Positions 4,363 through 25,625 of a stretch of DNA of 64,000 nt are shown in pieces. The position numbers and the translations under genes were made by a program. The notes beneath the pieces were generated by a model. That model did not search any database, was not told where the DNA came from, and worked only from the letters and a program-made list of their open reading frames with translations. The stretch comes from Roseobacter weihaiensis. GTDB lineage: Bacteria > Pseudomonadota > Alphaproteobacteria > Rhodobacterales > Rhodobacteraceae. Positions within the stretch are counted from its first letter, which is position 1; each line of letters begins with the position of its first letter. The stretch lies in assembly GCF_020622345.1 (NCBI RefSeq), contig NZ_JACNMO010000004.1, positions 62,001 through 126,000 on the forward strand, in the 5' to 3' direction.

Positions 4363-6540
4363 TCAGGCTGTCATGCCCTGCGGTGACCTCTCGCCAGATG
4401 TCGGCGTGCAGGCGGCCAGCGCTTCCAAAAGCACATGGGCCTTGCGCGGGGCGAGGTCCTTTTGCGCCAGGGCCTGGATGCTCCGGGTCAGAATATGATC
4501 CGATCTGCTGCAGGCCTCTGCCAGGCTGTCGATGTGATCCGCATCGCTCAACGCGTCAAAGATGGGGGTGCTGTGCACCGCATCGGGATCATCGAGCAAC
4601 CGGTCCAGTGCTGCACCGCGCACCATCTTCGCGGGATCGGCCAGGGCCGAGACAGCTTCGACGTTTGTTGCCGCATGCCGCACGGCCACGGCGCGCAAGA
4701 GCGCATCACTGTCCTCAAGGCACGCCCGCAGGCCCCGCGCCGCCTCGGCATCCAAGGCCAGGATATCGGCGGCAACGGACCGGATTGCCGGGGTTTCATC
4801 TTTCAGCCCTGCGGTTGCCTGCGCCAAGGTCTCTGCTCCCCTCAGCCCTGTCCGGGCCCGGTTGAGCAGCGCGCGCCATGCCACAAGGCGCAAAGTTTCC
4901 TCTGCGTCGTTAAGCGCCCCCAGAACAGCGTCTGCGATACGTGGGTGATCCAGATCGCCTGCAATCCCAAGAGCAAGGACCCGCAGATCATCCGCAACCG
5001 CCTCCGGTCCCTCAACGGGTCTGCGGTGGCGGCGTTTGGCGGGGGTTTCTTCGGGGGTATCCGTCGCCTGGATCGGTTCAGGTGGCGTTTCGCGCCCCGC
5101 CTGCTGGATGACCTCCAGCGTGGAGCGAATGGCTTGCGGGGCCTCGGCAGCATCGGTTTCAATGATGTCGCCCTCGCGTGAAATGCGCAGATGCCCGCGC
5201 GGGGGCGCATCCGCTTTGGGCATGGTAACGTCTGGACCGCCAGCCTCCTGATGCGCCACAACGGCGTGCTCTGCGGATAAAAGCGTACCCGCCATGGCCA
5301 CGGCCAGCGCCTCTCCGGCCACGGCATCGCCTTGCCGGCAGAGCGTGGTCAGGCAGGTCAGCGCCACCGCGCGCACCTGTTGGCTTTCATTGCCAAGAAG
5401 CCCCGTCAGCCTTTCGGTGGCAGGCTCATCCTCAAGCCGGGCGATGGCTTTGACGGCCTCAAGCCGCGCGGCCAAGGGGCGGGCGGTGTCCTGCGCAAGC
5501 GCCAGTAAGGCCGGGGCCGATGTCTTCGGGGCGAGGTCGGGCAAAAGCCGTGCCGCCGCCGAGGCGAGTTTTTCATCGCCAACGCGGCACCATGCAAAGG
5601 CGTTTTCCGTGACGGTCGCGTGCAGCTTCGCCTCAAGCGGCAGCGCCAGATGATCGAGGGCCACGGCCTGAACCGCAGGGCTGTTGTCTGACAACGCCGA
5701 GATCGCCAGATCAGGGAGATGCGGAGCGATGCGCGCCAATGTCTCCGCGCGAATACCGGCCTCCGGGTCGCGTAGGGAAAGGGCCTCAAGACGCTTGTCA
5801 TCGGGGGCCAGCCACGTGATCGCAAGCCGCCGGACATCTGCCGCGCCGTCCTCCAGCACATAGTCGGCGTAGTCCTCCAACAGCGAGGGGGTCATTTCGG
5901 CCAAGCTCTCCAACGCACGCTTGCGCGACAGACCCTGTTCGGACTGGGCGATGGACAAAAGCCATGTCGCCCCCTCGCTGCCCATGGCGGCCAGAGCGGC
6001 AAAGACCGGACCATCAAGCACCTGCCCCTCTTCGTCGTCGCGGGCGGCGAGGATGTCTTCGATGGCGTCCGTGGCCTTGAGGTGCCCCAGCGCCTCGATT
6101 GCCATCACCTGCACATCGAGCCAGTCATCCCAGGCGTCCGTTTCGTCTTCCCAGGCGATGTCGCCTGATGCGCGGGACAGAGCGAGTTGGCGCAACACCG
6201 GGATGGAGCCCACGTCGCCCAGGGCTGCAAGTGTCAGGATCGCGGCGTGTTTGACCTCTCGCACGGGGTCGCCCATCAGGGATTTGCGCAAGACCGGCGC
6301 GTCTTCGGGCTGCGCGCACAGACGCAGACTATCCATCGCATCGGTGCGCACATCCGGGTCTTCGTCCAGCAGGCAGGCCAGCAGGGCTGCGCGCACCCGC
6401 GGATCGTCTGCTGCGACGGCTGCCGCCGCACGCACGGCCCCGGTGCGGATCACATCGTTCGGGCTTGCGATCTGATCCAGCAGCAAAGGTACGGGGTCGG
6501 GGCAATCAGTCCGCGAGGGAGGTTGGCTTTGGTCCAGCAT
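4363..6540 (-). CDS. HEAT-repeat protein linked to the iodate-reductase-like operon
   Basis: This 725-residue protein is built almost wholly of HEAT/PBS-lyase-type helical repeats of about 31 residues. They are visible as recurring PDVRTDAMDSL-, REVKHAAILTLAALGD-, QQVRAVALTCL- and PAIRSVAADILALD-type units. A low-complexity, Pro/Glu-rich and basic linker near residues 440-510 (ETPPEPIQATDTPEETPAKR) splits the array into two halves. The chosen ATG (MLDQSQ) has an AAGGAAG site; an upstream in-frame ATG would run into the stem-loop. There is no signal peptide, so it should be cytoplasmic. It is the last gene of the operon, 71 bp after the molybdoenzyme subunit. A role as a scaffold or chaperone in maturation of that enzyme is inferred from position only. 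Confidence 0.85.
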   Translation of the reverse strand: MLDQSQPPSRTDCPDPVPLLLDQIASPNDVIRTGAVRAAAAVAADDPRVRAALLACLLDEDPDVRTDAMDSLRLCAQPEDAPVLRKSLMGDPVREVKHAAILTLAALGDVGSIPVLRQLALSRASGDIAWEDETDAWDDWLDVQVMAIEALGHLKATDAIEDILAARDDEEGQVLDGPVFAALAAMGSEGATWLLSIAQSEQGLSRKRALESLAEMTPSLLEDYADYVLEDGAADVRRLAITWLAPDDKRLEALSLRDPEAGIRAETLARIAPHLPDLAISALSDNSPAVQAVALDHLALPLEAKLHATVTENAFAWCRVGDEKLASAAARLLPDLAPKTSAPALLALAQDTARPLAARLEAVKAIARLEDEPATERLTGLLGNESQQVRAVALTCLTTLCRQGDAVAGEALAVAMAGTLLSAEHAVVAHQEAGGPDVTMPKADAPPRGHLRISREGDIIETDAAEAPQAIRSTLEVIQQAGRETPPEPIQATDTPEETPAKRRHRRPVEGPEAVADDLRVLALGIAGDLDHPRIADAVLGALNDAEETLRLVAWRALLNRARTGLRGAETLAQATAGLKDETPAIRSVAADILALDAEAARGLRACLEDSDALLRAVAVRHAATNVEAVSALADPAKMVRGAALDRLLDDPDAVHSTPIFDALSDADHIDSLAEACSRSDHILTRSIQALAQKDLAPRKAHVLLEALAACTPTSGERSPQGMTA

Positions 6541-6563
6541 GGGTCTTCCTTGAAACAGCGTGA

Positions 6564-6607
6564 GGCCCTGTCTGCCTGGCCCGCGAAAGGGCCGGGCAGA
6601 CAGGGCC
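6564..6607 (-). other. Long stem-loop between idrA-like and HEAT-repeat genes
   Basis: A 19-bp stem, from GGCCCTGTCTGCC to GGCAGACAGGGCC with a single T/G mismatch, closes a 6-base GCGAAA loop. It starts 4 bases after the idrA-like stop and ends 23 bases before the HEAT-gene start. No U run follows, so it looks more like an mRNA-stabilising or attenuating element than a full terminator. Confidence 0.7.
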
Positions 6608-6611
6608 AAGA

Positions 6612-9287
6612 TCAGGCGATGTCGCGCCGCGCAAAGGACATGGAGCGGAATTGGTGCTTGTAGGGGCTTTCGCCCATCTTGCGCACCTTGCCCACACCCA
6701 TCTTGTAGTTGTAGTTGCCGCTGATCCAGTCCACCACACGACCCGACAAGGCGTTTGCGGGCTGCGACGTGTGCAGGAAATCCATATAGCCGAGGTTTTC
6801 CTTGACCGCAGGGGTGACGATGGCGACCGCCGTGATCGAGGCCTTGGTCAGCTCGATATGCCCGTTGCGGAGCAGCGAGGCGAAATCGAAATCAGAGCTT
6901 TCCACCCCGACGATGGTGTTGGTCTGCACCGGGATGCGGTCCGAATAGACCTGCACGTAGTCCCCGTTTTCGATGCCACGGGCTTCGGCCACGGTGGGAT
7001 GCAGTTCGATCCAGTTTTCGGGCCAGCGCTGCACGATGTAGGGCCGGCGCCGGTCGTCATAGCCTGACTGCCAGCGTTCGTTGATCCGGCCGGAGCTGAT
7101 CCAAATCTCGTCCTCGCGCGGCTTCATCCATTCCCAATAGCTCGAAAACAGATCCCACGGTGCTTTCTGGATATTGCATTTGCCGGTCTGGCTGTTGAAG
7201 TGGGTGAGTTTCTTGTTGAAGACATTCGCCCCCTGCGGGCCGGTATCCGGCAGCACGCGGTTGACGTCATGCAGCCGTTTGGTGCCCTCCAGCGAGCCGT
7301 CTGCCAGCATCATGACAGGGCCCTGAATGCCATTGGTGCCGAACTCTGCAAACTTCTCGTGCAGGGTCTTGCCCTCGCGTTTTGCCGCGACATGCACCAT
7401 GTTGAAATCCTTGCGGCTGCCGCGGGAATGGCGCGCGCCCTCTTCCAGCACATCGTTGGAGGTCTGCCAGTCGAAGCCCTCGAACCCCATCTTCTTGGCC
7501 AGATTGGCGATGATCCACCAGTCGGGCCTGGCCTCGCCGGGGGCGTCGTAGAATTTGGGGTAAAGCCGCAGGCGACGTTCGCCGTTGGCGCGGGTGAAGG
7601 TCTCCTCCCCCCAGCCAGAAGCGGGAAAGACGATGTCCGCGTAGCGCGCCCCGATAGGGTCCACCAGATAGATATCCTGATCCCAGACCACCATACCGCC
7701 GCTGTCGGTGCGCTTTTTCAGCGTGTCGATGATATCCTGTTTCTCGAAACTCTGGACCTGATGCGGGTTGCGCGTGGTCAGCTCGTCGAACTTGGCCTGC
7801 AAGGACTGCGAGCCGCACATCGCCTGCACCCAGGTGGTGCCGATGACATGGGCAAGCCGCGTGTGACCGCTCATCAGATAGCGGTCGGTGTCCATCGCGC
7901 GGCGCCGCCGTCCGGGCAGCTTTTCGGGTGATTTGTTGCGGGGATAGCCGCCGCCGCGCAGACCTCCGCGCTGATGACCCCCGGCGCGTCCGATGACCTG
8001 ACCGGGCCGCCCGCCCGCCCCCACAGTAATCCCCAAGGCAGAGATCGCCTGCGTGTTGCCGGTGTTGTTCGACCAGTAAAACCCTTTCTCGATCATGATC
8101 GAGGTCTTGGGGCGGGTGCCGTCTTCGCGGGGTTTGGCCATCCATTCGGCGGCGGTGTAGATTTTCTGCACGTCGATCTGGGCGATTTCAGCAGCCTTTT
8201 CAGGCTCGGCATAGTCCTGCGCCAGCAACCATTCCTTCCAGTCCTCGAACCCGTCGGTCTGAAATTTACCCCAGGTCGTGCGCCACTGCCACGGTGTGTT
8301 GCGGGTGCCCTGGCCAAAGCCCGAGGAGCTTTCCCATTTGTTGTTGACCCAGTTCTCGATCCAGGCGTCGTCCTGCCAGCCGTTCTCCACGATGACCCGC
8401 GCGATGGCCAGAACCACGGGCAGGTCGGTGCCGGGCTGGATGTCGAGCACAAGGCCGCCATTCTTTTCGGCAAAGGCGGTGCCGCCGGTGCGGCGCGGCA
8501 GCATGAAGATCGTCTTCTGGCCACCCTGAATGGCGGGCATGATGTAGTCGGTAAAAAGGATCGTCTTGGACTCGTAAGGGTCAGTGCCGCACATCATCAG
8601 CGTGTCGGCCTCGGCCCAGTCGTCGTAGCTGGGGCCGAAGTTGTCGAAGCCTGCATCCCGAAAGCCGGGGGTGGAAGACACATCCGACGGCGTGTCGTGG
8701 AAGGTGAAATTCGCGGTGCGCAGGTGGCGCAGGGCGTATTTGGTGATGGCGTAGGTATTCTCCATGTAACCATAAGAGAAAGTCTTGACGCCATAGGCAT
8801 TTGTGCCGTGTTTCTCAAGCACGTGATTGCCCACCTCTGCGGCAATCTCCAGCGCGAAATCCCAGGTGACCGGCATCAGCACGCCGAACATGCGCACCAT
8901 GGGGGATTTCAACCTGTCGCGGGTCGGTGTCTGCGGATTGTAGAGTTTCTTGGCCAGCGCCCCGCCCCGGATGGAGGAGTTGCCCGAGTAGTTGACGAAG
9001 TCCGTTTCCTTGTCGGGGATGATGACGATGTGGTGCGGCGCGCCATTGTGCAGCACGATATTGTGCTGGTTGGGCGCGACCCAGGCTCCTAGGGGGGCCA
9101 CGGGAAAATCCTCGCCAAAGGCGTTCTGATCGGCGGCGGGTCCGCCCACCTTGCCGCCCGCAACGGGCCAGCGGTAGACCTTGTAGCCGCAGGCCACGAC
9201 GCAGTAATCGCAAGCGGTCGAGATCACATCAGCGTCGGGCGGTGGCAGCGGAACGGATTGTTCGGGCACGTAATATGGTGTGGACAT
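6612..9287 (-). CDS. idrA: Molybdopterin oxidoreductase, arsenite-oxidase family, probable iodate reductase catalytic subunit
   Basis: The 891-residue protein belongs to the arsenite-oxidase branch of the DMSO-reductase family. An N-terminal cluster motif has C26, C29 and C33. The fourth position of the usual C-x-K/R-G motif is serine (S105 in SIRGG), as in AioA, which carries a 3Fe-4S cluster. Mo-bis-MGD-binding stretches such as WDFALEIAAEVG and the C-terminal nucleotide region (YMDFLHTSQPANALSGR) follow. It has no signal peptide and is expected to ride on the Tat signal of the adjacent Rieske subunit. Start: GAGGAG site 6 bases before the ATG. Two di-heme peroxidase genes in the same operon are typical of idrABP1P2 (iodate reductase) and not of aio operons. 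An arsenite oxidase homologue of other function remains possible. Confidence 0.72.
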   Translation of the reverse strand: MSTPYYVPEQSVPLPPPDADVISTACDYCVVACGYKVYRWPVAGGKVGGPAADQNAFGEDFPVAPLGAWVAPNQHNIVLHNGAPHHIVIIPDKETDFVNYSGNSSIRGGALAKKLYNPQTPTRDRLKSPMVRMFGVLMPVTWDFALEIAAEVGNHVLEKHGTNAYGVKTFSYGYMENTYAITKYALRHLRTANFTFHDTPSDVSSTPGFRDAGFDNFGPSYDDWAEADTLMMCGTDPYESKTILFTDYIMPAIQGGQKTIFMLPRRTGGTAFAEKNGGLVLDIQPGTDLPVVLAIARVIVENGWQDDAWIENWVNNKWESSSGFGQGTRNTPWQWRTTWGKFQTDGFEDWKEWLLAQDYAEPEKAAEIAQIDVQKIYTAAEWMAKPREDGTRPKTSIMIEKGFYWSNNTGNTQAISALGITVGAGGRPGQVIGRAGGHQRGGLRGGGYPRNKSPEKLPGRRRRAMDTDRYLMSGHTRLAHVIGTTWVQAMCGSQSLQAKFDELTTRNPHQVQSFEKQDIIDTLKKRTDSGGMVVWDQDIYLVDPIGARYADIVFPASGWGEETFTRANGERRLRLYPKFYDAPGEARPDWWIIANLAKKMGFEGFDWQTSNDVLEEGARHSRGSRKDFNMVHVAAKREGKTLHEKFAEFGTNGIQGPVMMLADGSLEGTKRLHDVNRVLPDTGPQGANVFNKKLTHFNSQTGKCNIQKAPWDLFSSYWEWMKPREDEIWISSGRINERWQSGYDDRRRPYIVQRWPENWIELHPTVAEARGIENGDYVQVYSDRIPVQTNTIVGVESSDFDFASLLRNGHIELTKASITAVAIVTPAVKENLGYMDFLHTSQPANALSGRVVDWISGNYNYKMGVGKVRKMGESPYKHQFRSMSFARRDIA

Positions 9288-9298
9288 TTTGTTTCTCC

Positions 9299-9886
9299 TC
9301 AGCCCTGCAGATTGTCGAAACGACCGTAGATCAGGCCAAACATGCCGACGGCGTAGATGTCATCGCCCTCCAGTTCCAGCAGGACCTGCGGCAGCGATTG
9401 ATAGGCCTGGCCCGAGATGAAGATGCCGTGCCGTGTCAGATCAAAGGTGGTCAGGTGCAGCGGGCAGGGGCCAAGCGCCTTGTCCGCCGCCTGATAGGTG
9501 CCCTGCAAAGGGCCACCCTGATGCGTGCAGGTGTAGTTGAAGGCCACCACATCCTTATCCGGGCCCAGACCCCCTCCGGCCTCCTGACCAAGCTTGACCA
9601 GAATGCTTTCGGCGTATTCGCCCTCGTCGGGGTATTCGAAATCAAAAGGGTCATCGACCATCAGCGTGCTGAGTTTTGTGATGAATTTGCGCTCATATGT
9701 CGAGACGACAGCGGGTGTCTGCGCCTCTGGCATGCCGGGCACACCCACCATGACCACGGTGGTCGCAATGCCGCTGGTCAGCAGGAACTGACGCCGGTTC
9801 ATCAGGCATTTGCGCGTGCCGGCTTTCGCGGCTTCGCCATTCTCACCGTTGATCGCGGCGAGGATTTTGGGATCAAGATCGTTCAT
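9299..9886 (-). CDS. idrB: Rieske iron-sulfur subunit with Tat signal, AioB/IdrB type
   Basis: This 195-residue protein has a twin-arginine signal (NRRQFLLTSG, R31-R32) after an unusually long 29-residue N-region. A Rieske 2Fe-2S fold follows, with C120-T-H122 and C141-P-L-H144 as ligands. Both boxes lack the extra cysteines that form the disulfide in bc1-type Rieske proteins (CTHQGG and CPLH here), which suggests a lower redox potential, as in some AioB proteins. It should be exported folded, together with the molybdenum subunit encoded 11 bp downstream, and pass electrons between that subunit and c-type cytochromes. An AGGAGACAGG site precedes the ATG. Family assignment is firm; the iodate role depends on the neighbouring genes. 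Confidence 0.78.
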   Translation of the reverse strand: MNDLDPKILAAINGENGEAAKAGTRKCLMNRRQFLLTSGIATTVVMVGVPGMPEAQTPAVVSTYERKFITKLSTLMVDDPFDFEYPDEGEYAESILVKLGQEAGGGLGPDKDVVAFNYTCTHQGGPLQGTYQAADKALGPCPLHLTTFDLTRHGIFISGQAYQSLPQVLLELEGDDIYAVGMFGLIYGRFDNLQG

Positions 9887-9902
9887 ATGTCCTGTCTCCT
9901 GC

Positions 9903-11027
9903 TTAGTTGTTGGCTGCGAGCGGCAGAGGTTCCATTACGGGCACCTCGGGCGCTTCGGGGAGGATTTCGTCACCGCTCAGGCTTTCCAGAAAGGCGACGA
10001 GGTCGTCGATTTCCGGGTCCGAAAGGCCCAGAGGCTGGATCAGCGATGACTTGTTGGCGGCAAATTCATTCTCGCCGCCTCCCTCATTGTAGAAGACCAC
10101 CACATCGCGCAGCGTCTCGATCATCCCGTTGTGCATGTAGGGGTAGGTATAGGCGGTGTAGCGCAGGCTGGGCGTGCGGAACTTGCCCTTGTCCGACTTC
10201 TGTTTGGTGCGGAAATAGAGCCCCGGATCATCCTTGGTGGTGCGGTACATCTCTTCGGTGGAGCCCTTGGCGAAAAGTTCGAACCGGAAGGTGATCTGCG
10301 CCAGGGCGTCGTCTTCCCAGCCGTCATAGGGCGGCACGCCGGTGTTGTAGTATTTCTCGTCACTCAGCAGCGGGCCGTTGTGACAGGTCGCGCAGTTTGC
10401 CTTGCCGGTAAAGAGATCCAGCCCGCGCTTTTGCGCCTCGTTCAGCGCGCCGTCATCGCCGTTCATGTAGTTGTCGAAAGGCGTATCGGTCTGAACAATC
10501 GTCCGCTGATAGGCGGCGATGGCCATATAGGCGTGGCGGATGCTGGGCCAGTCATCACCGAACACCTCGGCAAAGGCCGCGCGGTATTCCGGCACAAAGG
10601 CCAGACGGGCCTCCATCATGTCGTCTTCACCGTTGCCGGCGACCCCGCCGCGCGCGGCAGAGCGGGCCTGATGCTCCAGCGATCCTGAGGCTCCGGCCCA
10701 GAAGAGCTTGCCGTAATAGGCCGAGTTCACAATGGTCTGGCTGTTGCGCCAATGCGTGGTGCCGGGATAGCCAAAGCTGATCTTGTCCTGCACCGCCCAG
10801 CCTGCACTGGGCTCGTGGCAGGCCGAACACGGCATGCCGTTGTTACCTGACAGGATCGGGTCAAAGAACAGTTTTTCCCCCAGTGCGACCTTTTCAGGCG
10901 TCATCGGGTTGTCCGCCGGGATCGGGGGCGGCCCCAAGGCGGAAAGCTCTTCGGGGCGATCTTGTGCGGCCAGTGGTGACGCCACCAAAGTGGCCAGACC
11001 CAGAGCGTATAGGGTGAGATGTTTCAT
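9903..11027 (-). CDS. Di-heme cytochrome c peroxidase-family protein, IdrP type
   Basis: The 374-residue periplasmic protein has a signal peptide (MKHLTLYALGLATLVASPLAA) and two haem c sites, C67-S-A-C-H71 and C212-A-T-C-H216, in the bacterial cytochrome c peroxidase/MauG arrangement. The C-terminal region carries the usual RTPSLRYTAYTYPYMHNG stretch. In known idr operons two such proteins (IdrP1 and IdrP2) are proposed to remove hydrogen peroxide or partly reduced products formed during iodate reduction. I cannot tell which of the two this is. The ATG follows an AAGGAGG site, and the gene sits 12 bp after its paralogue and 16 bp before idrB, so co-translation in one operon is likely. Confidence 0.82.
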   Translation of the reverse strand: MKHLTLYALGLATLVASPLAAQDRPEELSALGPPPIPADNPMTPEKVALGEKLFFDPILSGNNGMPCSACHEPSAGWAVQDKISFGYPGTTHWRNSQTIVNSAYYGKLFWAGASGSLEHQARSAARGGVAGNGEDDMMEARLAFVPEYRAAFAEVFGDDWPSIRHAYMAIAAYQRTIVQTDTPFDNYMNGDDGALNEAQKRGLDLFTGKANCATCHNGPLLSDEKYYNTGVPPYDGWEDDALAQITFRFELFAKGSTEEMYRTTKDDPGLYFRTKQKSDKGKFRTPSLRYTAYTYPYMHNGMIETLRDVVVFYNEGGGENEFAANKSSLIQPLGLSDPEIDDLVAFLESLSGDEILPEAPEVPVMEPLPLAANN

Positions 11028-11039
11028 GGTCCTGCCTCC

Positions 11040-12113
11040 TTAGTTTTGGACGTTTTTCCAGTCTTCGATGACTTCGTAATCGTAGTCATCCTCGCGCCAG
11101 ACATAGGCGTCCGTGTCAAAGCTCTCGCCGGACATCGCTTCGAGATAGGCGATCAGGTCCGATTTCTCGCTCGGCACCAGACCCAGCGGTTGCAGACGCG
11201 GGTCCTTGAGAGCATCGCCGCCGCCCCCACCGTCGTAGAAATCGATCACATCCGCCAGCGTCTCAAAGGTGCCGTTGTGCATGTAGGGCGCGGTCCAGAC
11301 CAGTTCGCGCAGGGTGGGTGTCAGAAAGCTGCGTTTGGTCTCGGCCCGGTGGGTGCGGACATAGGCCCCGAGGTCTTCGCGCAGGTTCATGTAGTTTTCG
11401 ACTCCCATGAACTTGGCATAGGTCACAAAGGCGGAGTGACGCTCTGCCGAGGCCCAGATATCGGGGTTTGTCGGCACGCCGGTGTTGTGCGGCTTGTCGT
11501 CGGTATAGCGCGGGCCGGTGTGGCAGGCGGCGCAGTTGGCCTTGCCCTCAAAGATATCCTTGCCCCGTTCGGCGGCGGCGGAGAGGGTCCCGGTATCAAC
11601 CGGCGCGTCCCGCGAGACGATGGTTTTCATAAAATCCATCAGCGCGTTGCGCGCGCCGCCATTGCTCGGTTCTGACATGCCCGCTGCGGCGAACATCTCG
11701 ACATACTTCGGGTCCTGCTTGAGCCGCTCCTGCATGATGCGCATGTCCATGTTCATCAGGTAGGTTTCGGTGATCATCTCGCGGGCGACGTCGTTGAGGT
11801 TGGTGCCCAGACGCCCATCATGCATCCAGGCGTCGCGGTATCCGACATTGGCCAGCGTCGGAGTGTTGCGGAAATGGCCGGCCCCTGTGTAGGCCGCGCT
11901 CAGCGCTTCACCGTCGGTGAAGGCCTTGTCGGGCTGGTGGCAGCTGGCACAGCTCAGGAAGGTATCGCCAGACAGGCGCGTGTCGTAAAACAGACGTTTG
12001 CCAAGTTCGGCACGGGCCGCATCCACGTCCATCGGCGGGATCGGGACAGTGTCTTGGGCGAGGGTTGCGGTGCCGGCAAGGAGCGAGCAGATAAGGGTGA
12101 GGTTTTTGAGCAT
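11040..12113 (-). CDS. Di-heme cytochrome c peroxidase-family protein, IdrP type, first gene of operon
   Basis: This 357-residue protein has a short signal peptide ending near residue 20 (LLAGTATLAQ) and two haem c sites, C55-A-S-C-H59 and C194-A-A-C-H198. It is a paralogue of the next gene, sharing the LFYDTRLSGD and TPTLRELVWTAPYMHNG regions, but clearly diverged from it. It opens the operon after an AGGAGA site, with about 260 bp of regulatory DNA upstream. As with its neighbour, the family includes cytochrome c peroxidases, MauG and IdrP1/IdrP2; operon context favours the last. Confidence 0.82.
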   Translation of the reverse strand: MLKNLTLICSLLAGTATLAQDTVPIPPMDVDAARAELGKRLFYDTRLSGDTFLSCASCHQPDKAFTDGEALSAAYTGAGHFRNTPTLANVGYRDAWMHDGRLGTNLNDVAREMITETYLMNMDMRIMQERLKQDPKYVEMFAAAGMSEPSNGGARNALMDFMKTIVSRDAPVDTGTLSAAAERGKDIFEGKANCAACHTGPRYTDDKPHNTGVPTNPDIWASAERHSAFVTYAKFMGVENYMNLREDLGAYVRTHRAETKRSFLTPTLRELVWTAPYMHNGTFETLADVIDFYDGGGGGDALKDPRLQPLGLVPSEKSDLIAYLEAMSGESFDTDAYVWREDDYDYEVIEDWKNVQN

Positions 12114-12307: not shown

Positions 12308-12334
12308 TTGTGACTTTTTGTGACGGGTTGTGAC
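12308..12334 (-). promoter_or_regulatory. Triple TTGTGAC direct repeat upstream of the idr-like operon
   Basis: TTGTGAC occurs exactly at 12308-12314, 12318-12324 and 12328-12334, a strict 10-bp period that puts all copies on one face of the helix. The array lies about 195-220 bp upstream of the first idrP-type gene and just beyond the end of the histidine-kinase gene. OmpR-family regulators typically bind 10-11-bp-spaced direct repeats, and one is encoded nearby at 14675-15409. The rest of the 12114-12372 gap holds a TTGCGT-N10-ACGCAA inverted repeat at 12253-12274; no clear -35/-10 pair was found. Confidence 0.6.
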
Positions 12335-12372
12335 GAAACCGGCACTTTTACTTGATCCGGAGCAAGCAGGAC

Positions 12373-14589
12373 CTAATGCGCAGCATCCAGTAAGAATCGG
12401 ATGCGCTGTGCCAAGCGTGCAGGATCAATCGGTTTATGCATGACCTCTGGTTCAGGGCCATCGATCTTCAGCCCGCCAGGGTTGTAGCCGGTGCAAAAGA
12501 TCACCGGCAAATCGGATCGGATCGCGCGCAGTTCATTGACCAGCGCTTCGCCACTCATGTCCGGCATCACCATGTCGGAGATCAAAAGATCGGGGCGATC
12601 CGGTGCAGACTGAAAGTGCTCCAGCGCGACCAGCGGCGAGGTAAACGCCTCGACCCGGTAGCCCAGACGCAGCAGCAGCCGTCGGAAGGTCACGGCAATA
12701 TCGGGCTCATCGTCCACCAGCACGATCCGTTCATGCCCCCGGGGCATCTCTGCGGCGGCGGTTTCGGTTTTGGCCAGACCGGCCTCTGCGCGGGGCAGGT
12801 AGACCGTGAATGTCGCCCCCTGTTGCGGTGTGCTGTCAACGCTGATCCTGCCCCCCATTTCTTCAATCAGTCCGCAGACCACCGCGAGCCCAAGGCCCGA
12901 GCCTTTGCCAAGCGGTTTGGTCGTGTAGAACGGGTCGAACAGATGCTGTTTGGTCTCGGCACTCATGCCGGGGCCATTGTCCGAGACGCAGAAGACAATC
13001 CAGCCGCCCTCGCGCGGCTCAAGGCCTGCGGGTACATGGTCGTCGAGAACGCGCGCATCAATGGCAATCTGACCAGGCTCCGCGCCAATCGCTTCGACCG
13101 CATTGCGGCACAGGTTCATCACGATCTGGTGCAAGTAGGTGTCGTCCCCCAATACAGTCAGATCATCCCCGATCCCGTCGCGCTTGAGCGTAATCGTCGG
13201 TGGCATCGAGGCCTGCAGCAGGCGCGACACTTCTTCGATCACCGCGGTCAGGCTGGTCGGTTGCAAAGACCCCGGTGTCCGTCTTGCGAAGGTCAGCAGC
13301 CCCTGCACAAGGCTTTGGCCGCGCCGGGCCGCGATATCGATCTGATCGACCTCAACTTCGATATCACTGCCAGCAGGCGCATCCATCGCGGCCAGATGGG
13401 CAGCCCCCACGATCGTAGTCAGGATATTGTTGAAGTCATGGGCGATGCCGCCCGCGAGCAGCCCCACGGCTTCCAGCTTCTGGGCGCGGGCCACCTGCTC
13501 GCGGGCCTGACGTTTTTCGGTGATGTCCTCGCCCATGCCGATGAAGTTGCGCACGCTGCCATCTTCGCCCAGCAGCGGCAGGATCTTGGTCTCTGCCCAA
13601 TAGCTCGACCCGTCCTTGCAGCGGTTGCGGAACACGCCTTGCCAGTCTTCGCCCTTGTCCAGACGACGCCGTATTGCGGCATATTCCGATGCTGGCGTGT
13701 CGCCGGATTGCAAAAACCGCGGTGTCTGGCCGATGACCTCGTCGCGCTGCCAGCCGGTGATCTTTTCGAACTGGCGATTGGCATAGATAATCTTGGCGTC
13801 GGTGTCGGTCATGAAGATCGTGGCGGGGCTTTGTTCAACGGCCTGGGCGAGCCGTTCATTGGATTTCTGCAACTCCCGCCTCCGGTGCAATTCGTCCGAC
13901 AGCCGCAGAACGGCGTCGCGCATGTCGCGCAGCAGCAAAACCAGCAGATACCCGATCAGCAGCGCAAGACAGACCAGCGCCGCGATGGACAGAAAGCCGA
14001 TCCAGATCAGCGTTTGCCCGCGATTGACCGCCGCCAGCATCCGGTCTGCGCTGGTCTGACGATTCACGCTCCAGATCTGTTCGAGGTCTGCCAGGGCCTG
14101 CAACGCTTCGGTATCCGAAATCCGGACCGCGGTATCTGTGCGCTCGGTGGGCCATCCCTGTTCGGCGGCCCGGACCGCGACGGGCAGGGCGGCGCTATAG
14201 CGCAAAATCGTCTCCCGGACGATCTGCAGGGCCTCCCGTTCGCGCGGATCTGCGGTTGCGGTCAGGTAGAGGTCAGTGACCGCAAGAAACTGATCGATCT
14301 GTTCTTCGGTGCGGTGCAGGTAGATGGGATCTTTGCGCAGGACGTAGTTTTTGAAATTGTGGATGATGCCGCCATAGCCCAGGTGGCCGCGAATGGCGCT
14401 GATCCATTCTCCCTTCTGACCGATGTCGAGGGAATACTCGTTCCAGTTCTCTTCGACTTCGCGGAACTGCTCGCGGGTCTGGACGCCCAGAAAGAGGCCG
14501 AGGCCCACGGTGATAAACAAAGACGCCAGCGAGGCCAGACCAATGCGCCGGGTTCTCGACAAGGCGTTCGAGTGAACATTCTCCGGCAT
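12373..14589 (-). CDS. Hybrid sensor histidine kinase with periplasmic sensor, PAS and receiver domains
   Basis: The 738-residue protein has a membrane helix at about 16-37, a periplasmic region of about 155 residues and a second helix near 194-220. A short coiled segment, a PAS domain (about 252-357) and a HisKA domain of the HDFNN type with H384 follow. The HATPase domain shows N496 in its N box, DNGPGM (537-542) and the GSGLGLAVV G box. The C-terminal receiver has phosphoacceptor D672 and K719. I chose the ATG at 14589 (MPENVHS), which has an AAGAGG site; a start 60 bases further upstream is possible. It is divergent from the response regulator gene and lies just upstream of the idr-like operon, so it is a candidate sensor for that system. 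The ligand is unknown. Confidence 0.88.
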   Translation of the reverse strand: MPENVHSNALSRTRRIGLASLASLFITVGLGLFLGVQTREQFREVEENWNEYSLDIGQKGEWISAIRGHLGYGGIIHNFKNYVLRKDPIYLHRTEEQIDQFLAVTDLYLTATADPREREALQIVRETILRYSAALPVAVRAAEQGWPTERTDTAVRISDTEALQALADLEQIWSVNRQTSADRMLAAVNRGQTLIWIGFLSIAALVCLALLIGYLLVLLLRDMRDAVLRLSDELHRRRELQKSNERLAQAVEQSPATIFMTDTDAKIIYANRQFEKITGWQRDEVIGQTPRFLQSGDTPASEYAAIRRRLDKGEDWQGVFRNRCKDGSSYWAETKILPLLGEDGSVRNFIGMGEDITEKRQAREQVARAQKLEAVGLLAGGIAHDFNNILTTIVGAAHLAAMDAPAGSDIEVEVDQIDIAARRGQSLVQGLLTFARRTPGSLQPTSLTAVIEEVSRLLQASMPPTITLKRDGIGDDLTVLGDDTYLHQIVMNLCRNAVEAIGAEPGQIAIDARVLDDHVPAGLEPREGGWIVFCVSDNGPGMSAETKQHLFDPFYTTKPLGKGSGLGLAVVCGLIEEMGGRISVDSTPQQGATFTVYLPRAEAGLAKTETAAAEMPRGHERIVLVDDEPDIAVTFRRLLLRLGYRVEAFTSPLVALEHFQSAPDRPDLLISDMVMPDMSGEALVNELRAIRSDLPVIFCTGYNPGGLKIDGPEPEVMHKPIDPARLAQRIRFLLDAAH

Positions 14590-14674: not shown

Positions 14675-15409
14675 ATGGAAGCTCATATTCTTGTTGTAGA
14701 TGACGACGGGCAGCTGACGTCATTTCTAAAGCGGTTTTTGGACAAGCAGGGATTTCAGACAGACATCGCGGCAACTGCTGCAAAAGCGCGCGCGCGGCTT
14801 GCGGAAAACAACTATGCGCTGGTCGTGCTGGATCTGATCCTGCCCGATGCCGACGGTCTGGACATCGCCCGCGAGATCGGCAGCACATCGCAGACGCCCG
14901 TTATTATGCTGACGGCGCGTGATGACGTCTATGATCGTGTCGTGGGGCTTGAGATTGGCGCGGATGACTACGTCACCAAGCCCTATGAACCAAGAGAATT
15001 ACTGGCGCGCATCCGCTCGGTCCTGCGGCGCAGCACGGCAGGGCAAAAGGTGGCATTGGCCCCCAAGCCGACGAACATCAGGTTCATGGGTTTCGAACTC
15101 AACCCGGCTGAGCGGCTGTTGGTTAATGTTGACAAAAGTGAGCCGGTGCCGCTGACGGGCACTGAGTTCACCCTGTTGCATACGCTGGCCAGCAATGCGG
15201 GGGCTGTCTTGTCCCGTGCGGCGATCATGGATGCCCTTTACGGCAACAATATCACTGTCACGGATCGGGCAATCGATGCGCATGTGGCCCGGCTGCGAAA
15301 GAAAATCGACCCTGTGGATGGGCGCAACTCACTGATCCGGGCGGTGCACGGTCAGGGCTATGTTTTTGCGACAGAGCTGGACAATCCGGGGCGGGGAGAC
15401 CCGCGCTGA
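14675..15409 (+). CDS. OmpR/PhoB-family response regulator
   Basis: The 244-residue protein has a receiver domain with acidic pocket D9-D11, phosphoacceptor D53 (VLDLILPDADG) and K102 (TKPYEP). A winged-helix Trans_reg_C domain follows at about residues 135-235 (LTGTEFTLLHTLASNAGAVLS, then the recognition region RAIDAHVARLRKKID). The ATG of MEAHILVVDD follows a GGGAAGAAG site; the open frame extends upstream but without a good start. It is transcribed away from the hybrid kinase gene and probably forms a pair with it. Neighbouring TTGTGAC repeats are its likeliest targets. It could also regulate the xylose genes, which converge on it, but those have their own ROK regulator. Confidence 0.88.
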   Translation: MEAHILVVDDDGQLTSFLKRFLDKQGFQTDIAATAAKARARLAENNYALVVLDLILPDADGLDIAREIGSTSQTPVIMLTARDDVYDRVVGLEIGADDYVTKPYEPRELLARIRSVLRRSTAGQKVALAPKPTNIRFMGFELNPAERLLVNVDKSEPVPLTGTEFTLLHTLASNAGAVLSRAAIMDALYGNNITVTDRAIDAHVARLRKKIDPVDGRNSLIRAVHGQGYVFATELDNPGRGDPR

Positions 15410-21556: not shown

Positions 21557-22825
21557 TTGAACGAAAAAATAATTTTAAGCCGCGCGCTCACAACGCCGCG
21601 GGACGGCTGTGGGCCTTTGTTGCAGGGGAGCGGGGAGAACGCATTTTCCCTGCGGCAACAAGTCTTTGAGTATGTGCGCGCGCACGGGCAGGCGGCGCGG
21701 GCGGATATCACGACGGCTCTTGGCATCAGCCCGGGATCGGCCACAACCCTCACGGCTGATCTGATCACCAGCGGCTTTTTGCGTGAATTCGAGGGGCGCG
21801 CGCGCGAAACCGGGCGCGGGCGCCCCAAGGTCGGGCTCGAAGTTGTGCCGAATGCGGCCTATGTGATCGGCATCAAGCTGGCCTTCAACCGCCATACGGC
21901 CGTGCTTGCGGATTTTGCGGGCAAGGTCATTGCGGATGCTTCTTTCCCCTCTGGCGATACGCGCAGGCCGATGGCGCAACTGTTGCAGGAAACGCAAAAC
22001 CTCGTGGACCGGCTGCTCAAGGAGAGCGGCATATCACCATCGGACATCAAGGCGATGGGGATCGGCATGCCCGGCATCATCGATCACTCAACCGGTACGG
22101 TGGCGTGGTCCTCCTTGCTGGAGGTCCGCAACGAAGACCTGACGGCCGCCTTTTCTGAACGCTTTGGCATGCCACTGTTGTTGGACAATGACGCCAATAT
22201 GCTGACCCTCGCGGAGCTTTGGTTTGGCGAAGGTCGTGCAATGTCGGATTTTGCGGTTGTGACCGTGGAAAGCGGGGTGGGCATGGGGCTGGTGCTGCGC
22301 AATCAGCTTTACCGCGGGGCCCATGGCATGGGGCTGGAGCTGGGGCATACCAAGGTGCAACTGGACGGCGCACTTTGCCAATGCGGGCAACGGGGCTGTC
22401 TGGAGGCCTATGTGGCGGATTACGCGCTGATCCGCGAGGCCGCCACGGCGCTTGGCCATAGTTTCGATACCAGCAAAAACCCCGAAGATGTCCTGGCAAC
22501 CCTCTTCGAGCGGGCAAAATCCGGTCATACTGCGGCTGAGACGATCTTTCGCCGGGCTGGGAAATATCTGTCACTTGGTCTGTCGAATGTTGTGCAACTC
22601 TTTGATCCCGAGCTGATTATCCTGTCGGGCGAGCGCATGCAGAATGATTATTTCTACGCCGAGGAGGTGCTCGACACGATGGAGAAACTGACCCTCAACG
22701 AGGGGCGGCAATCCTGCCGGGTTGCGGTCAATGCCTGGGACGATCTGGTCTGGGCGCGCGGCGCGTCTGCCTTGGCCTTGTCCTCGGTGACGGCCACGTT
22801 GATTGATGAGATGCGCGCGGCATGA
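21557..22825 (+). CDS. ROK-family transcriptional regulator, probable xylose repressor
   Basis: The 422-residue protein has an N-terminal winged helix (about 30-90: LRQQVFEYVRAHGQAARADI, SPGSATTLTADLI) and a ROK sugar-kinase-like domain. That domain has the phosphate-binding-type GIGMPGIID and the zinc motif CQCGQRGCLEAY. I place the start at TTG 21557 because GGAGGGGG lies 8 bases before it; TTG 21521 and GTG 21539 are alternatives without a site. It is divergent from xylF and so most likely an XylR-type repressor relieved by xylose. Its stop overlaps the next gene (ATGA), so the FG-GAP protein is made from the same message. Confidence 0.9.
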   Translation: MNEKIILSRALTTPRDGCGPLLQGSGENAFSLRQQVFEYVRAHGQAARADITTALGISPGSATTLTADLITSGFLREFEGRARETGRGRPKVGLEVVPNAAYVIGIKLAFNRHTAVLADFAGKVIADASFPSGDTRRPMAQLLQETQNLVDRLLKESGISPSDIKAMGIGMPGIIDHSTGTVAWSSLLEVRNEDLTAAFSERFGMPLLLDNDANMLTLAELWFGEGRAMSDFAVVTVESGVGMGLVLRNQLYRGAHGMGLELGHTKVQLDGALCQCGQRGCLEAYVADYALIREAATALGHSFDTSKNPEDVLATLFERAKSGHTAAETIFRRAGKYLSLGLSNVVQLFDPELIILSGERMQNDYFYAEEVLDTMEKLTLNEGRQSCRVAVNAWDDLVWARGASALALSSVTATLIDEMRAA

Positions 22826-24306
22826 GATTGCTGTGCCTCCTGACCTGTCTGGTGGCGCAGCAGGGCAGCGCCGAGGTGCTGTTTGAAGACCGCTCGGCCG
22901 CGCTGCCACCTCATACCTATGAGGGAGGCTGGGAGCATTTTGTCGGTGGCGGTCTGGCCGTGTTCGACTGCAATGGGGACGGGCTTGCGGATATCTTTGC
23001 CGCCGGAGGCGAAAACCCGGCCAAGCTGATCGTCAACAAGGGGGCATTCCGGTTTGAAACCGCCGATCTGCCGGCCTTGACGCATGTCACGGGTGCCTAT
23101 CCGCTGGACATTGATGCGGATGGGATCAAGGATCTCTTTGTGCTGCGCGTCGGCGCGAATGTGGTACTGCGCGGGCACCCCTCCTGCCGTTTCGAGCGGG
23201 CAGATGATCTGTGGGGCGTGCCCGGAGATACGGCCTGGAGCACCGCTTTCACCGCCTGGTGGGAGGACGAAACGACCAAACCGGTGCTGGCCGTGGGCAA
23301 TTACGTGGATCGCAGCGCCCCCGATGGTCCGTTCGAGGCCTGTGACGATCATCGCATCCTTTTTCCAAAGACCGATGGCTATGATGCCATGACGCTGGCA
23401 CCGGGGTTTTGCGCGCTGTCGATCCTCGCGGCCCGTGACGCACGCGGAAAGATGGCCCTGCGTCTGTCGAACGACCGGCACTACTACGTCCGGGGCGGGC
23501 AGGAGCAGATGTGGGATATCGCGGAGCGTCGTTTTCTGACCGAAGCGGATGGCTGGGAAACGGTGGCCTTGTGGGGCATGGGGATTGCCAGCCGCGATCT
23601 GACCGGGGACGGTTTGGACGAGGTGATGCTCACCTCGATGGGCGATCAACTGATGCAGATTGCCCAAGGCGACGGCCGGTACAAAGCCGCCCCGTTTGAG
23701 ATCGGCACTTACGCGCAGCGCCCGCATGTGGGCGATGACGGGCGTCCCTCCACCGGGTGGCACGCCGAGTTTGGCGATGTGAACAACGACGGGCTGGCCG
23801 ATCTGTTCATTGCCAAGGGAAACGTGGATCAGATGCCGGGCATGGCGACGCGCGACCCGAACAATCTGCTGGTGCAAACGCCGGAGGGTCGCTTTGAGGA
23901 GGTCTCGGTGCGGGCCGGGGTCGCGTCGATGCAGCGATCCCGTGGCGCGGCGCTGGTTGATTTTGACGGCGACGGGCGGCTGGACCTGATCGTTTCGAAC
24001 CGTCGCGCGCCGCTGGAGCTCTATCGCAATGTCTCGCCCGAGGTCGGGAACTGGCTGCGCATTGAGCTGCGACAGGCCAACGCAAACCGCGATGCCATTG
24101 GCGCGCGGATCACGGTTGAAACGGGGCAGGCCACGCAATCCGTGCAGCAGGTGGTCGGCGGCGGACATGCTGGCGGCCAGTTGTTGCCGCGTCACTTTGG
24201 GGTGGGGGAGGCGCAGGACGCGACCATCATCGTTGATTGGCCCGATGGCACGCAAACCCGCACATCCGCGCGCGCAGGCGGCACCCATCTGATTGAAAAA
24301 CCTTAA
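22822..24306 (+). CDS. Exported CRTAC1-family protein (FG-GAP/VCBS repeats with ASPIC/UnbV domain)
   Basis: The 494-residue protein has a short signal peptide (MRLLCLLTCLVAQQGSA). Repeated calcium-type beta-propeller loops follow (DCNGDGLADIF, DIDADGIKDLF, DLTGDGLDEVM, DVNNDGLADLF, DFDGDGRLDLI), and then a C-terminal ASPIC/UnbV region (NWLRIELRQANANRDAIGAR, GQLLPRHFGVGEAQ). It overlaps the ROK regulator stop by 4 bases. Its stop codon shares the palindrome TTAA with the stop of the converging di-heme peroxidase gene. CRTAC1 proteins are often found with cytochrome c peroxidase genes; the biochemical role is unknown. Likely periplasmic or secreted. Confidence 0.85.
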   Translation: MRLLCLLTCLVAQQGSAEVLFEDRSAALPPHTYEGGWEHFVGGGLAVFDCNGDGLADIFAAGGENPAKLIVNKGAFRFETADLPALTHVTGAYPLDIDADGIKDLFVLRVGANVVLRGHPSCRFERADDLWGVPGDTAWSTAFTAWWEDETTKPVLAVGNYVDRSAPDGPFEACDDHRILFPKTDGYDAMTLAPGFCALSILAARDARGKMALRLSNDRHYYVRGGQEQMWDIAERRFLTEADGWETVALWGMGIASRDLTGDGLDEVMLTSMGDQLMQIAQGDGRYKAAPFEIGTYAQRPHVGDDGRPSTGWHAEFGDVNNDGLADLFIAKGNVDQMPGMATRDPNNLLVQTPEGRFEEVSVRAGVASMQRSRGAALVDFDGDGRLDLIVSNRRAPLELYRNVSPEVGNWLRIELRQANANRDAIGARITVETGQATQSVQQVVGGGHAGGQLLPRHFGVGEAQDATIIVDWPDGTQTRTSARAGGTHLIEKP

Positions 24307-25625
24307 GGCACGGCCAGGCCGCTGGGCACCGTTTCGGGGATGCCAAGACGGCCTGCAAGGCTCGCCTCATCCGTAAGCGTGCCCAGAAACGCCACCAGCG
24401 CCGCGATGTCATCCGGGCTAAGGGCAACGGGAGGCACCCCGACGGTTGCGGCAATGTCCTGCAGGGCCTCGGGGGTCTGCAGGATCGCGAAATCATCAGG
24501 CACCGCGCCCGACAAAAGCGCCTGCGCCGGATCATAGTTTTGCAGCTCCGCGACCGGGTCTGCGTGGTGGGCGATGAAACCGGCGAGCGTTCGATGCGCC
24601 CCCGCGTGCCCATAAGGTCCGGTGACGGCGACATTGCGCAGGGATGGCGTGCGAAAGGCGTAGGCGTCCTCCGCCCGGCCCGTCACCCGGAACCGACCAT
24701 CGTCGCGCTGGTGATCCTCAAAGGTGGCGGATTTGCCCGGCCCGATCTGGGGCGTCCCCATGGCGTGAAACCCGTGATCCGTCAGAAACTGGCCTGCATG
24801 GCAGGTGGCACACCCGGCGCTGCCATAGAAAAGCGCCAACCCTTCGAGAGCCGCGCCTTCAAACGTGACCTCTCCGCGCAGCAGCGCATCGAAAGGTGCG
24901 GTATCGGAGCGCCACTCAAAGGCGATGAAGGCCGCAATTGCGTTTGAGATATCCGTAAAGGCGATATCGGAGGGGGTGTCGATATGCGGATAGAGGGCTT
25001 GAAACTGTGCGGCATAGTCCGGGATCTGGGCCACCCGCTGAGAAAGCAGATCCCAGGCGCCCCCGGGGCCCGTGATGCGCCCCTGACGCACCGCCTGACC
25101 GATCTCGTTTTCGTTGTAGCTTCCGGCCATCTCGTCGCGGCTGAGCACCGGGAACATCGTCTGCGCGGAGAGCACCGAGGCAAACCCTTGCATCATATCG
25201 GCATCGAGCGGCGAGCGGAGGCCGCCGGGGGAGGCCGCATCAGCCTCCAGCCTGCCATCATGGAACATCACGGTGAAGTCCCGGGCCCCCAGATTGAAGA
25301 GGGCAGGCGAATTGCGGGGGATGCGCTGTTCCGGCGGATCGTCAGGGTCCGCCCGCCGCGCCGGGCCTAGCCCGATCCCGCCATCGCCGATGGAAAGAGA
25401 GACGCCATCCGACGTGCCAAAACGCGGGTGGTGACAGGTTGCACAGGCCACGGTCTTGTTGCCCGACAGGATCGGGTCGTAAAACAAGGCCTGCCCCAGC
25501 ATGGCCTCTGCCGGATTGACGGGCAGGTAGTCCGCGTCAGAGAGCGGCGGTGGCAACTCCTGCGCCAGAGCGGCCAGCGGCACGAAAAGCCCGGTCACCA
25601 GGCCTGAAAGCCACGTCTTTGTCAT
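24303..25625 (-). CDS. Di-heme cytochrome c peroxidase / MauG-family protein
   Basis: The 440-residue exported protein (signal peptide to about residue 21, LAALAQ) has two haem c sites, C61-A-T-C-H65 and C272-A-T-C-H276. The C-terminal FRTPSLRNVAVTGPYGHAG is typical of the family. It is longer than the two IdrP-type proteins in the window and has a distinct insert between the haem domains, so it belongs to another subfamily. It has a strong AGGAGG site and starts 69 bp after the Gfo/Idh/MocA gene, so it could be the last gene of that long operon or have its own promoter. It converges on the CRTAC1 gene with overlapping stops. Confidence 0.85.
   Translation of the reverse strand: MTKTWLSGLVTGLFVPLAALAQELPPPLSDADYLPVNPAEAMLGQALFYDPILSGNKTVACATCHHPRFGTSDGVSLSIGDGGIGLGPARRADPDDPPEQRIPRNSPALFNLGARDFTVMFHDGRLEADAASPGGLRSPLDADMMQGFASVLSAQTMFPVLSRDEMAGSYNENEIGQAVRQGRITGPGGAWDLLSQRVAQIPDYAAQFQALYPHIDTPSDIAFTDISNAIAAFIAFEWRSDTAPFDALLRGEVTFEGAALEGLALFYGSAGCATCHAGQFLTDHGFHAMGTPQIGPGKSATFEDHQRDDGRFRVTGRAEDAYAFRTPSLRNVAVTGPYGHAGAHRTLAGFIAHHADPVAELQNYDPAQALLSGAVPDDFAILQTPEALQDIAATVGVPPVALSPDDIAALVAFLGTLTDEASLAGRLGIPETVPSGLAVP

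Follow-up and report, generated by a model that had tools for sequence, protein, structure and literature searches.

The 64,000-nt stretch of Roseobacter weihaiensis DNA analysed here (the window, to which all coordinates refer) carries an iodate reductase (Idr) locus, an identification that its sequence makes secure. It is very likely that this is a complete locus of the marine alphaproteobacterial type and that it works as proposed below, an estimate that excludes the role of its HEAT-repeat gene. The Idr locus itself is of an already-known type. What is new is the HEAT-repeat gene, which follows idrA across the clade, and a probable operator of GTCACA repeats; we found neither described. 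The first-pass annotation had read the four core genes as an iodate reductase operon. To these we add the HEAT gene, 3' of idrA on the same strand, and a kinase gene with a divergent regulator gene just upstream of idrP2:

14675..15409, + strand: OmpR/PhoB-type response regulator, divergent from the kinase (PF00072 and PF00486)
12373..14589, - strand: hybrid sensor histidine kinase (PAS, HisKA, HATPase_c and receiver, from domain searches)
12309..12335, - strand: three GTCACA units at 10-bp spacing, candidate operator, 196-222 bp upstream of the idrP2 start
11040..12113, - strand: idrP2, di-heme cytochrome c peroxidase/MauG-like protein, 357 residues (PF03150, 6.1e-37; two CxxCH)
9903..11027, - strand: idrP1, di-heme cytochrome c peroxidase/MauG-like protein, 374 residues (PF03150, 5.6e-43; two CxxCH)
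9299..9886, - strand: idrB, Rieske subunit (TIGR02694, 112.4 bits, cutoff 95.65; twin-arginine translocation (Tat) motif RRQFL; CxHx18CxxH)
6612..9287, - strand: idrA, AioA-family molybdenum subunit, 891 residues (TIGR02693, 423 bits, cutoff 359.05)
6541..6611, - strand: 71-bp idrA-HEAT intergenic gap that contains a strong RNA hairpin (folding of the 83-nt stretch 6538-6620)
4363..6540, - strand: HEAT-repeat gene, 725 residues, isoelectric point 4.7 (PF13646, 4.4e-21)

Transcription on the minus strand runs idrP2, idrP1, idrB, idrA, HEAT gene, and the names P1 and P2 were assigned from the published order P2,P1,B,A. The HEAT gene start at 6540 follows from an ATG in the sequence and a 725-residue database copy of the window's own protein; the kinase and regulator starts are one choice among several possible. 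Papers are cited by PubMed Central number (PMC).

The large subunit compared with arsenite oxidase

The components named in the first-pass annotation were all borne out. The large subunit exceeds the TIGR02693 cutoff, has the [3Fe-4S] motif CxxCxxxC at residues 26-33 (C26/C29/C33), and aligns its S105 with the AioA serine; S105 is conserved in the five Idr sequences displayed and S104 is not. No signal peptide of its own is visible by eye. IdrB, claimed as a Tat-exported Rieske subunit, has both the Tat and the Rieske motif and exceeds the TIGR02694 cutoff (definitions of the [3Fe-4S], Rieske and Tat motifs are from PMC10149662). Both peroxidase-family proteins match CCP_MauG with two CxxCH each, and their N-termini resemble signal peptides by eye; idrP2 scores 181 bits with TIGR03791 and idrP1 229 bits with TIGR04039, each under that model's cutoff. 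The operon is tight, with gaps of 12, 16 and 11 bp from idrP2 through idrP1 and idrB to idrA.

Could the locus instead encode an arsenite oxidase (Aio), or another molybdenum oxidoreductase that merely resembles Idr? Databases label such proteins arsenate reductase (azurin) large subunit, and the TIGR02693 match would fit this reading as well. Placement of the large subunit within the AioA clade had been named as the result that would overturn the iodate reductase reading. In a tree of 52 large subunits (LG+G4, quick search), it falls outside: nine AioA-type sequences split from 43 Idr-type sequences, the window and 42 others, with a Shimodaira-Hasegawa-like approximate likelihood ratio (SH-aLRT) support of 100, under a long-branch warning that covers the AioA side, L096, L120 and the junction of the two halves, the Idr/Aio split included. 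The tree was thinned from 101 usable sequences by removing near copies at 92% identity or more; repeats of one locus, sequences with a stop in the crude frame, those under 700 residues and those under 200 bits had been left out.

Residue changes point the same way. The window IdrA is 27-30% identical to the nine AioA-type sequences, and at 45 alignment positions where eight AioA sequences are invariant, at least 40 of 41 Idr sequences share a different state, sometimes a gap. The AioA motif GGHQE becomes GGHQR in Idr sequences and GGHQC in Azonexus; the window has R440, and arginine is found in at least 40 of the 41. S205 lies, as read from the alignment, opposite AioA Glu203, which we take to be an active-site residue.

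The neighbourhood also differs. AioBA of Sinorhizobium pSinA and NT-26 belongs to the same superfamily and shares the Rieske and molybdenum subunits and the [3Fe-4S] motif with the window, at 29% identity. Those loci have aioX with a kinase and aioR upstream and cytochrome c and glp genes downstream, and the aio loci examined mostly carry aioXSR, glp or ars genes. An aio-type neighbourhood of this kind, without peroxidases, was not found in the genes on either side of the window idrA. Conversely, the window has the peroxidase pair, and none is listed in the aio loci examined, whose gene tables are incomplete in that source. Given the tree position and the changed AioA-invariant residues, we reject the arsenite oxidase reading; together with the wider one of a look-alike molybdenum oxidoreductase it keeps only a very small probability. 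The iodate reductase reading is well supported by the IdrA clade, the two peroxidases, the missing AioA-type neighbourhood and a near match to a published idr carrier. Among the matches listed, the window IdrA is 93% identical to that of Roseovarius sp. 2305UL8-3 and 90% to that of Thalassovita taeanensis, which we take to be the same organism as Litorimicrobium taeanense. Litorimicrobium taeanense is named among the carriers of idr genes in PMC8692401. The nearest sequence in the tree is from a congener (G012, 95%).

Two points weigh against this identification. No proven IdrA appears by name among the matches listed, including 120 from a search with the Azonexus protein, and the nearest anchor is the predicted carrier T. 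taeanensis; distance to proven enzymes can thus be gauged only indirectly. Moreover, identity between the window IdrA and the Azonexus-type clade is only about 50%, and that clade probably contains the proven beta- and gammaproteobacterial enzymes.

One claim did not stand. The first-pass annotation took the peroxidases-first arrangement to depart from the described gene order, but PMC10989891 prints idrP2,P1,B,A and gives this arrangement for Pseudomonas SCT and Denitromonas IR-12 as well, and PMC8801600 states that two peroxidases always precede idrAB. It is also common here: 85 of the 96 idr loci, among them three that repeat other loci, show the full peroxidase-peroxidase-B-A order, and some of the 85 are on records filed as plasmids (Vibrio THAF190c, Azonexus). 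Ten of the 11 incomplete loci have less than 2 kb of sequence upstream of idrA; the remaining one, L165 in genome G634, has a 457-residue partial idrA with neither idrB nor peroxidases in the 10 kb upstream. An unusual order is therefore rejected. Because the name idrABP1P2 runs opposite to the genomic order, the apparent novelty was a naming artefact.

The HEAT-repeat gene downstream of idrA

We scored HEAT genes with a HEAT-family profile on the 4 kb after idrA, in loci drawn mostly from the best 80 of 461 matches, a sample that therefore favours close relatives of the window. In the clade defined by at least 69% IdrA identity to the window, the gene follows idrA in all 76 loci with at least 2 kb downstream (74 of 74 distinct loci). 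With less sequence downstream it was found in 10 of 11 (9 of 10 distinct); the miss, L040, has 348 bases there. By comparison, it follows idrA in none of the nine idr loci whose IdrA shows 46-66% identity (the partial L165 is one of these), and lies downstream of the large subunit in none of 12 aio loci, of which 10 have 2 kb there.

Genome-wide searches gave a similar picture; they scored part of the first-look candidates, at most 11 per genome in a set of 99 related genomes and at most 4 in 228 genomes that sample the family at one per genus, and the absences below are limited accordingly. Ten of the 99 have an A-family protein (seven clade IdrA, three AioA-like), and a HEAT match at an E-value of 1e-10 occurs in exactly those seven and in none of the other 92; four of the seven are from one genus and so are not independent. 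Among the 228, eight of the nine genomes with clade IdrA have the HEAT protein. In the ninth, G541, idrA is cut at a contig end, and there is no HEAT match elsewhere in the genome. Three genomes with deeper IdrA (47-52%) and 14 with only AioA-like proteins lack it, and the 202 with neither IdrA nor AioA gave one weak partial match (G606, 1.9e-11). A search in the class of genome G111 covered 48 genomes, two of them with IdrA. From this distribution, the marine alphaproteobacterial clade appears to have the HEAT gene as its fifth idr gene, not found described. The accessory genes given in the available part of PMC8801600 are a two-component system, a c551 cytochrome and moaA, and a HEAT gene is not mentioned there. 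Our literature search, whose coverage excluded subscription papers and supplements, returned no relevant publication on a HEAT-repeat protein with iodate, arsenite oxidase or a molybdoenzyme.

In Azonexus and Thiothrix, a c-type cytochrome and moaA occupy the slot after idrA. The deep-branching alphaproteobacterial locus L165 has a DUF2478 protein there (PF10649, 3.3e-40), as by eye do L120 and L163; Bosea sp. AS-1 (L105) likewise has a DUF2478 gene listed close to aioBA. Neither cytochrome/moaA nor DUF2478 was recognised after idrA in L164, L119 and L096.

What might the HEAT protein do? No signal peptide was seen, and the protein is probably cytoplasmic. Its predicted model has a mean predicted local distance difference test (pLDDT) score of 87.7, and 23 columns are invariant among 58 HEAT sequences, with D59-D67 and W130-Q144 close to each other. 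The protein matches only HEAT, Arm and similar helical-repeat families in Pfam and NCBIfam, and none of the TorD/NarJ-type chaperone families of molybdenum enzymes; weak matches to NblB/CpeY lie far below cutoff. We tentatively suggest that it may serve marine IdrAB as an obligate and dedicated factor for assembly and quality control, unrelated in sequence to TorD/NarJ. It would have entered, at the root of the marine alphaproteobacterial clade, the slot held elsewhere by moaA and the cytochrome or by DUF2478. The odds are somewhat against this reading.

Several observations count against such a role. The HEAT protein diverges fast, with 36-61% identity where IdrA has 92-95%, which would be unusual for the dedicated partner of an enzyme that evolves slowly. 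Fold searches with the model return mostly generic helical solenoids, such as the protein phosphatase 2A (PP2A) scaffold, importins and designed repeat proteins or binders; the one enzyme subunit listed, phycocyanin lyase CpcE/F, ranks 43rd among many ties and implies no function. Finally, idrA and the HEAT gene have a strong hairpin between them: the stretch 6538-6620 folds with a minimum free energy of -46.4 kcal/mol (z -5.5) in a long inverted repeat with no T-run after it. In relatives, the 75 nt from the idrA stop onward give z below -2 in 43 of 84 loci, against a rough shuffle, and conservation of the hairpin is suggestive only.

Some of these same features would suit a regulator or signalling scaffold, for example one coupling redox state to idr expression, rather than an assembly factor: the protein is apparently cytoplasmic and fast-evolving, and its model resembles solenoids that bind other proteins (PP2A scaffold, importins, designed binders). 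We think this unlikely. The HEAT gene is present after idrA in every one of the 76 clade loci with 2 kb downstream, while both kinase and regulator were found in 34 of the 78 idr loci compared, so its presence does not depend on that two-component system.

The inverted repeat at 6541-6611 may, as a separate matter, set transcript processing or dosage.

The two-component system and the GTCACA repeats

The GTCACA triplet is the sole match in the 5.35-Mb genome at up to two mismatches, and a reversed control gave no match. We compared 78 other idr loci (the window and two duplicates were dropped), taking as threshold a three-unit score of 14, the 99th percentile of a shuffled null that preserves dinucleotide blocks only. 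The threshold was reached in 27 of the 34 loci with a kinase and regulator and in 2 of the 44 without (Fisher 2e-12), a p-value that is optimistic because the consensus came from the window, the null kept dinucleotide blocks, related species were all retained and a regulator counted wherever in the locus it lay. Of the two extra repeat-bearing loci, L076 has kinase and regulator matches below the cut. Seven loci with a kinase and regulator fall under the threshold (L019, L021, L030, L077, L087, L094 and L120), which counts against the proposed switch. The triplet tracks with the two-component system and is a probable operator of the response regulator.

A two-component system near idr has already been proposed as the probable iodate sensor (PMC8801600), and we regard the hybrid kinase as a candidate sensor of iodate or low oxygen. 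The idr of DN11 has a sigma-54 type regulator with a kinase (PMC10149662), and a literature search aimed at the kinase returned one paper, on DN11. The version with an OmpR-type regulator was not met in the idr literature covered, nor was the GTCACA operator, at which no search was aimed.

The N-terminal sensor region of the kinase contains the motif GYGG.IH.FKNYVLR, present in at least 90% of 37 idr-linked kinases, the window's included. No Pfam domain is assigned over this region, which is a candidate ligand or redox site.

Proposed mechanism, distribution and significance

Iodate reduction by relatives of this locus is documented. The idrABP1P2 island of Pseudomonas SCT, Denitromonas IR-12, Azoarcus DN11 and Aromatoleum TC-10 has, like the window, four core genes in the order P2,P1,B,A, a Tat signal on IdrB and the [3Fe-4S] motif, with a two-component system nearby in several strains (PMC8692401, PMC8801600, PMC10149662), and idrA is required in Denitromonas IR-12 (PMC8692401). 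The accessories differ: a c551-type cytochrome, moaA and, in DN11, the sigma-54 type regulator and kinase there, against the HEAT gene, OmpR-type regulator and hybrid kinase in the window. Closer in lifestyle are Roseovarius azorensis, Notoacmeibacter marinus and Aliiroseovarius sediminilitoris, marine aerobic Alphaproteobacteria with the same four genes (PMC11445184). The available part of PMC11445184 names no HEAT gene, regulator or operator for them, and we compared them with the window by their published description. Since idr genes and iodate reduction in such bacteria are already in print (PMC11445184, PMC8692401), the novelty of the locus itself is weakened.

From the published work on relatives, low oxygen together with iodate would lead the two-component system to turn on the operon through the GTCACA repeats. 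IdrA would receive molybdenum bis(molybdopterin guanine dinucleotide) (Mo-bisMGD) and a [3Fe-4S] cluster in the cytoplasm, and the loaded subunit would bind IdrB, whose Tat signal would take the complex to the periplasm. P1 and P2 would clear peroxide arising en route. The HEAT gene may share the transcript of idrP2-P1-B-A. Its product, for which a cytoplasmic site is most likely because no export signal is visible, may be a scaffold that aids IdrAB maturation or retains IdrAB until loaded.

Does this enzyme support growth? A variant of the same mechanism, which we think somewhat more likely than not, is that the cluster serves as an electron sink or detoxifies iodate at low oxygen and does not sustain respiratory growth. 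The three marine aerobes almost fully reduced 2 mM iodate in static culture and reduced 0.1-0.5 mM when shaken; under N2 they neither grew nor reduced iodate, a result given as data not shown (PMC11445184). In R. azorensis the idr genes rose 59-102-fold with iodate in static culture, with idrA induced from 0.1 uM (PMC11445184). Conversely, iodate respiration does sustain growth in strains of Denitromonas, Azoarcus and Aromatoleum (PMC8692401, PMC10149662, PMC8801600).

Within the genus, idr is present in 4 of 19 genomes. The three other carriers in the genus have the whole module, regulator through HEAT gene, intact, but none of the window's neighbouring genes was found in the stretch of about 18 kb examined around it. 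In R. litoralis xylA is about 1.5 Mb from idr on the same contig; it was found in 18 of 18 genomes searched. The left-hand tripartite ATP-independent periplasmic (TRAP) gene has orthologues at 91-92% in two congeners (G003 and G017). The distribution fits transfer or relocation of the idr block as a unit. The two flanks were not together in the five congeners examined, which defined no clean empty site. RNA-family and tRNA scans of the window returned no match, and G+C runs from 0.59 to 0.66 over positions 1-30000, highest in the stretch of the HEAT gene; neither the scans nor G+C say anything decisive about a mobile island in the window. The first-pass annotation saw no integrase or transposase in the flanks; our own family searches covered about ten genes of the window.

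Elsewhere, idr-type genes lie on records filed as plasmids in Thiothrix subterranea (L098) and Azonexus hydrophilus (L097), where the annotation reads no more than arsenate reductase (azurin) or molybdopterin-dependent oxidoreductase. Further along the window, the gene for a UnbV/ASPIC FG-GAP protein (22822-24306, +) meets that for a third CCP_MauG di-heme protein (24303-25625, -) tail to tail, and the two overlap by 4 bp. They possibly encode a MauG-type enzyme-substrate pair; there is no sign of a link to idr.

Why do these genes matter? Bacterial iodate reduction may supply iodide to surface waters and hence contribute to ozone loss at the sea surface, as argued in PMC11445184. The marine alphaproteobacterial form of Idr is common in the genomes searched and little studied. 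The HEAT gene and the operator provide two genetic handles on how marine Idr is built and switched. Moreover, the HEAT gene offers an additional metagenome marker for marine idr operons, whose large subunit databases still call an arsenate reductase or arsenite oxidase.

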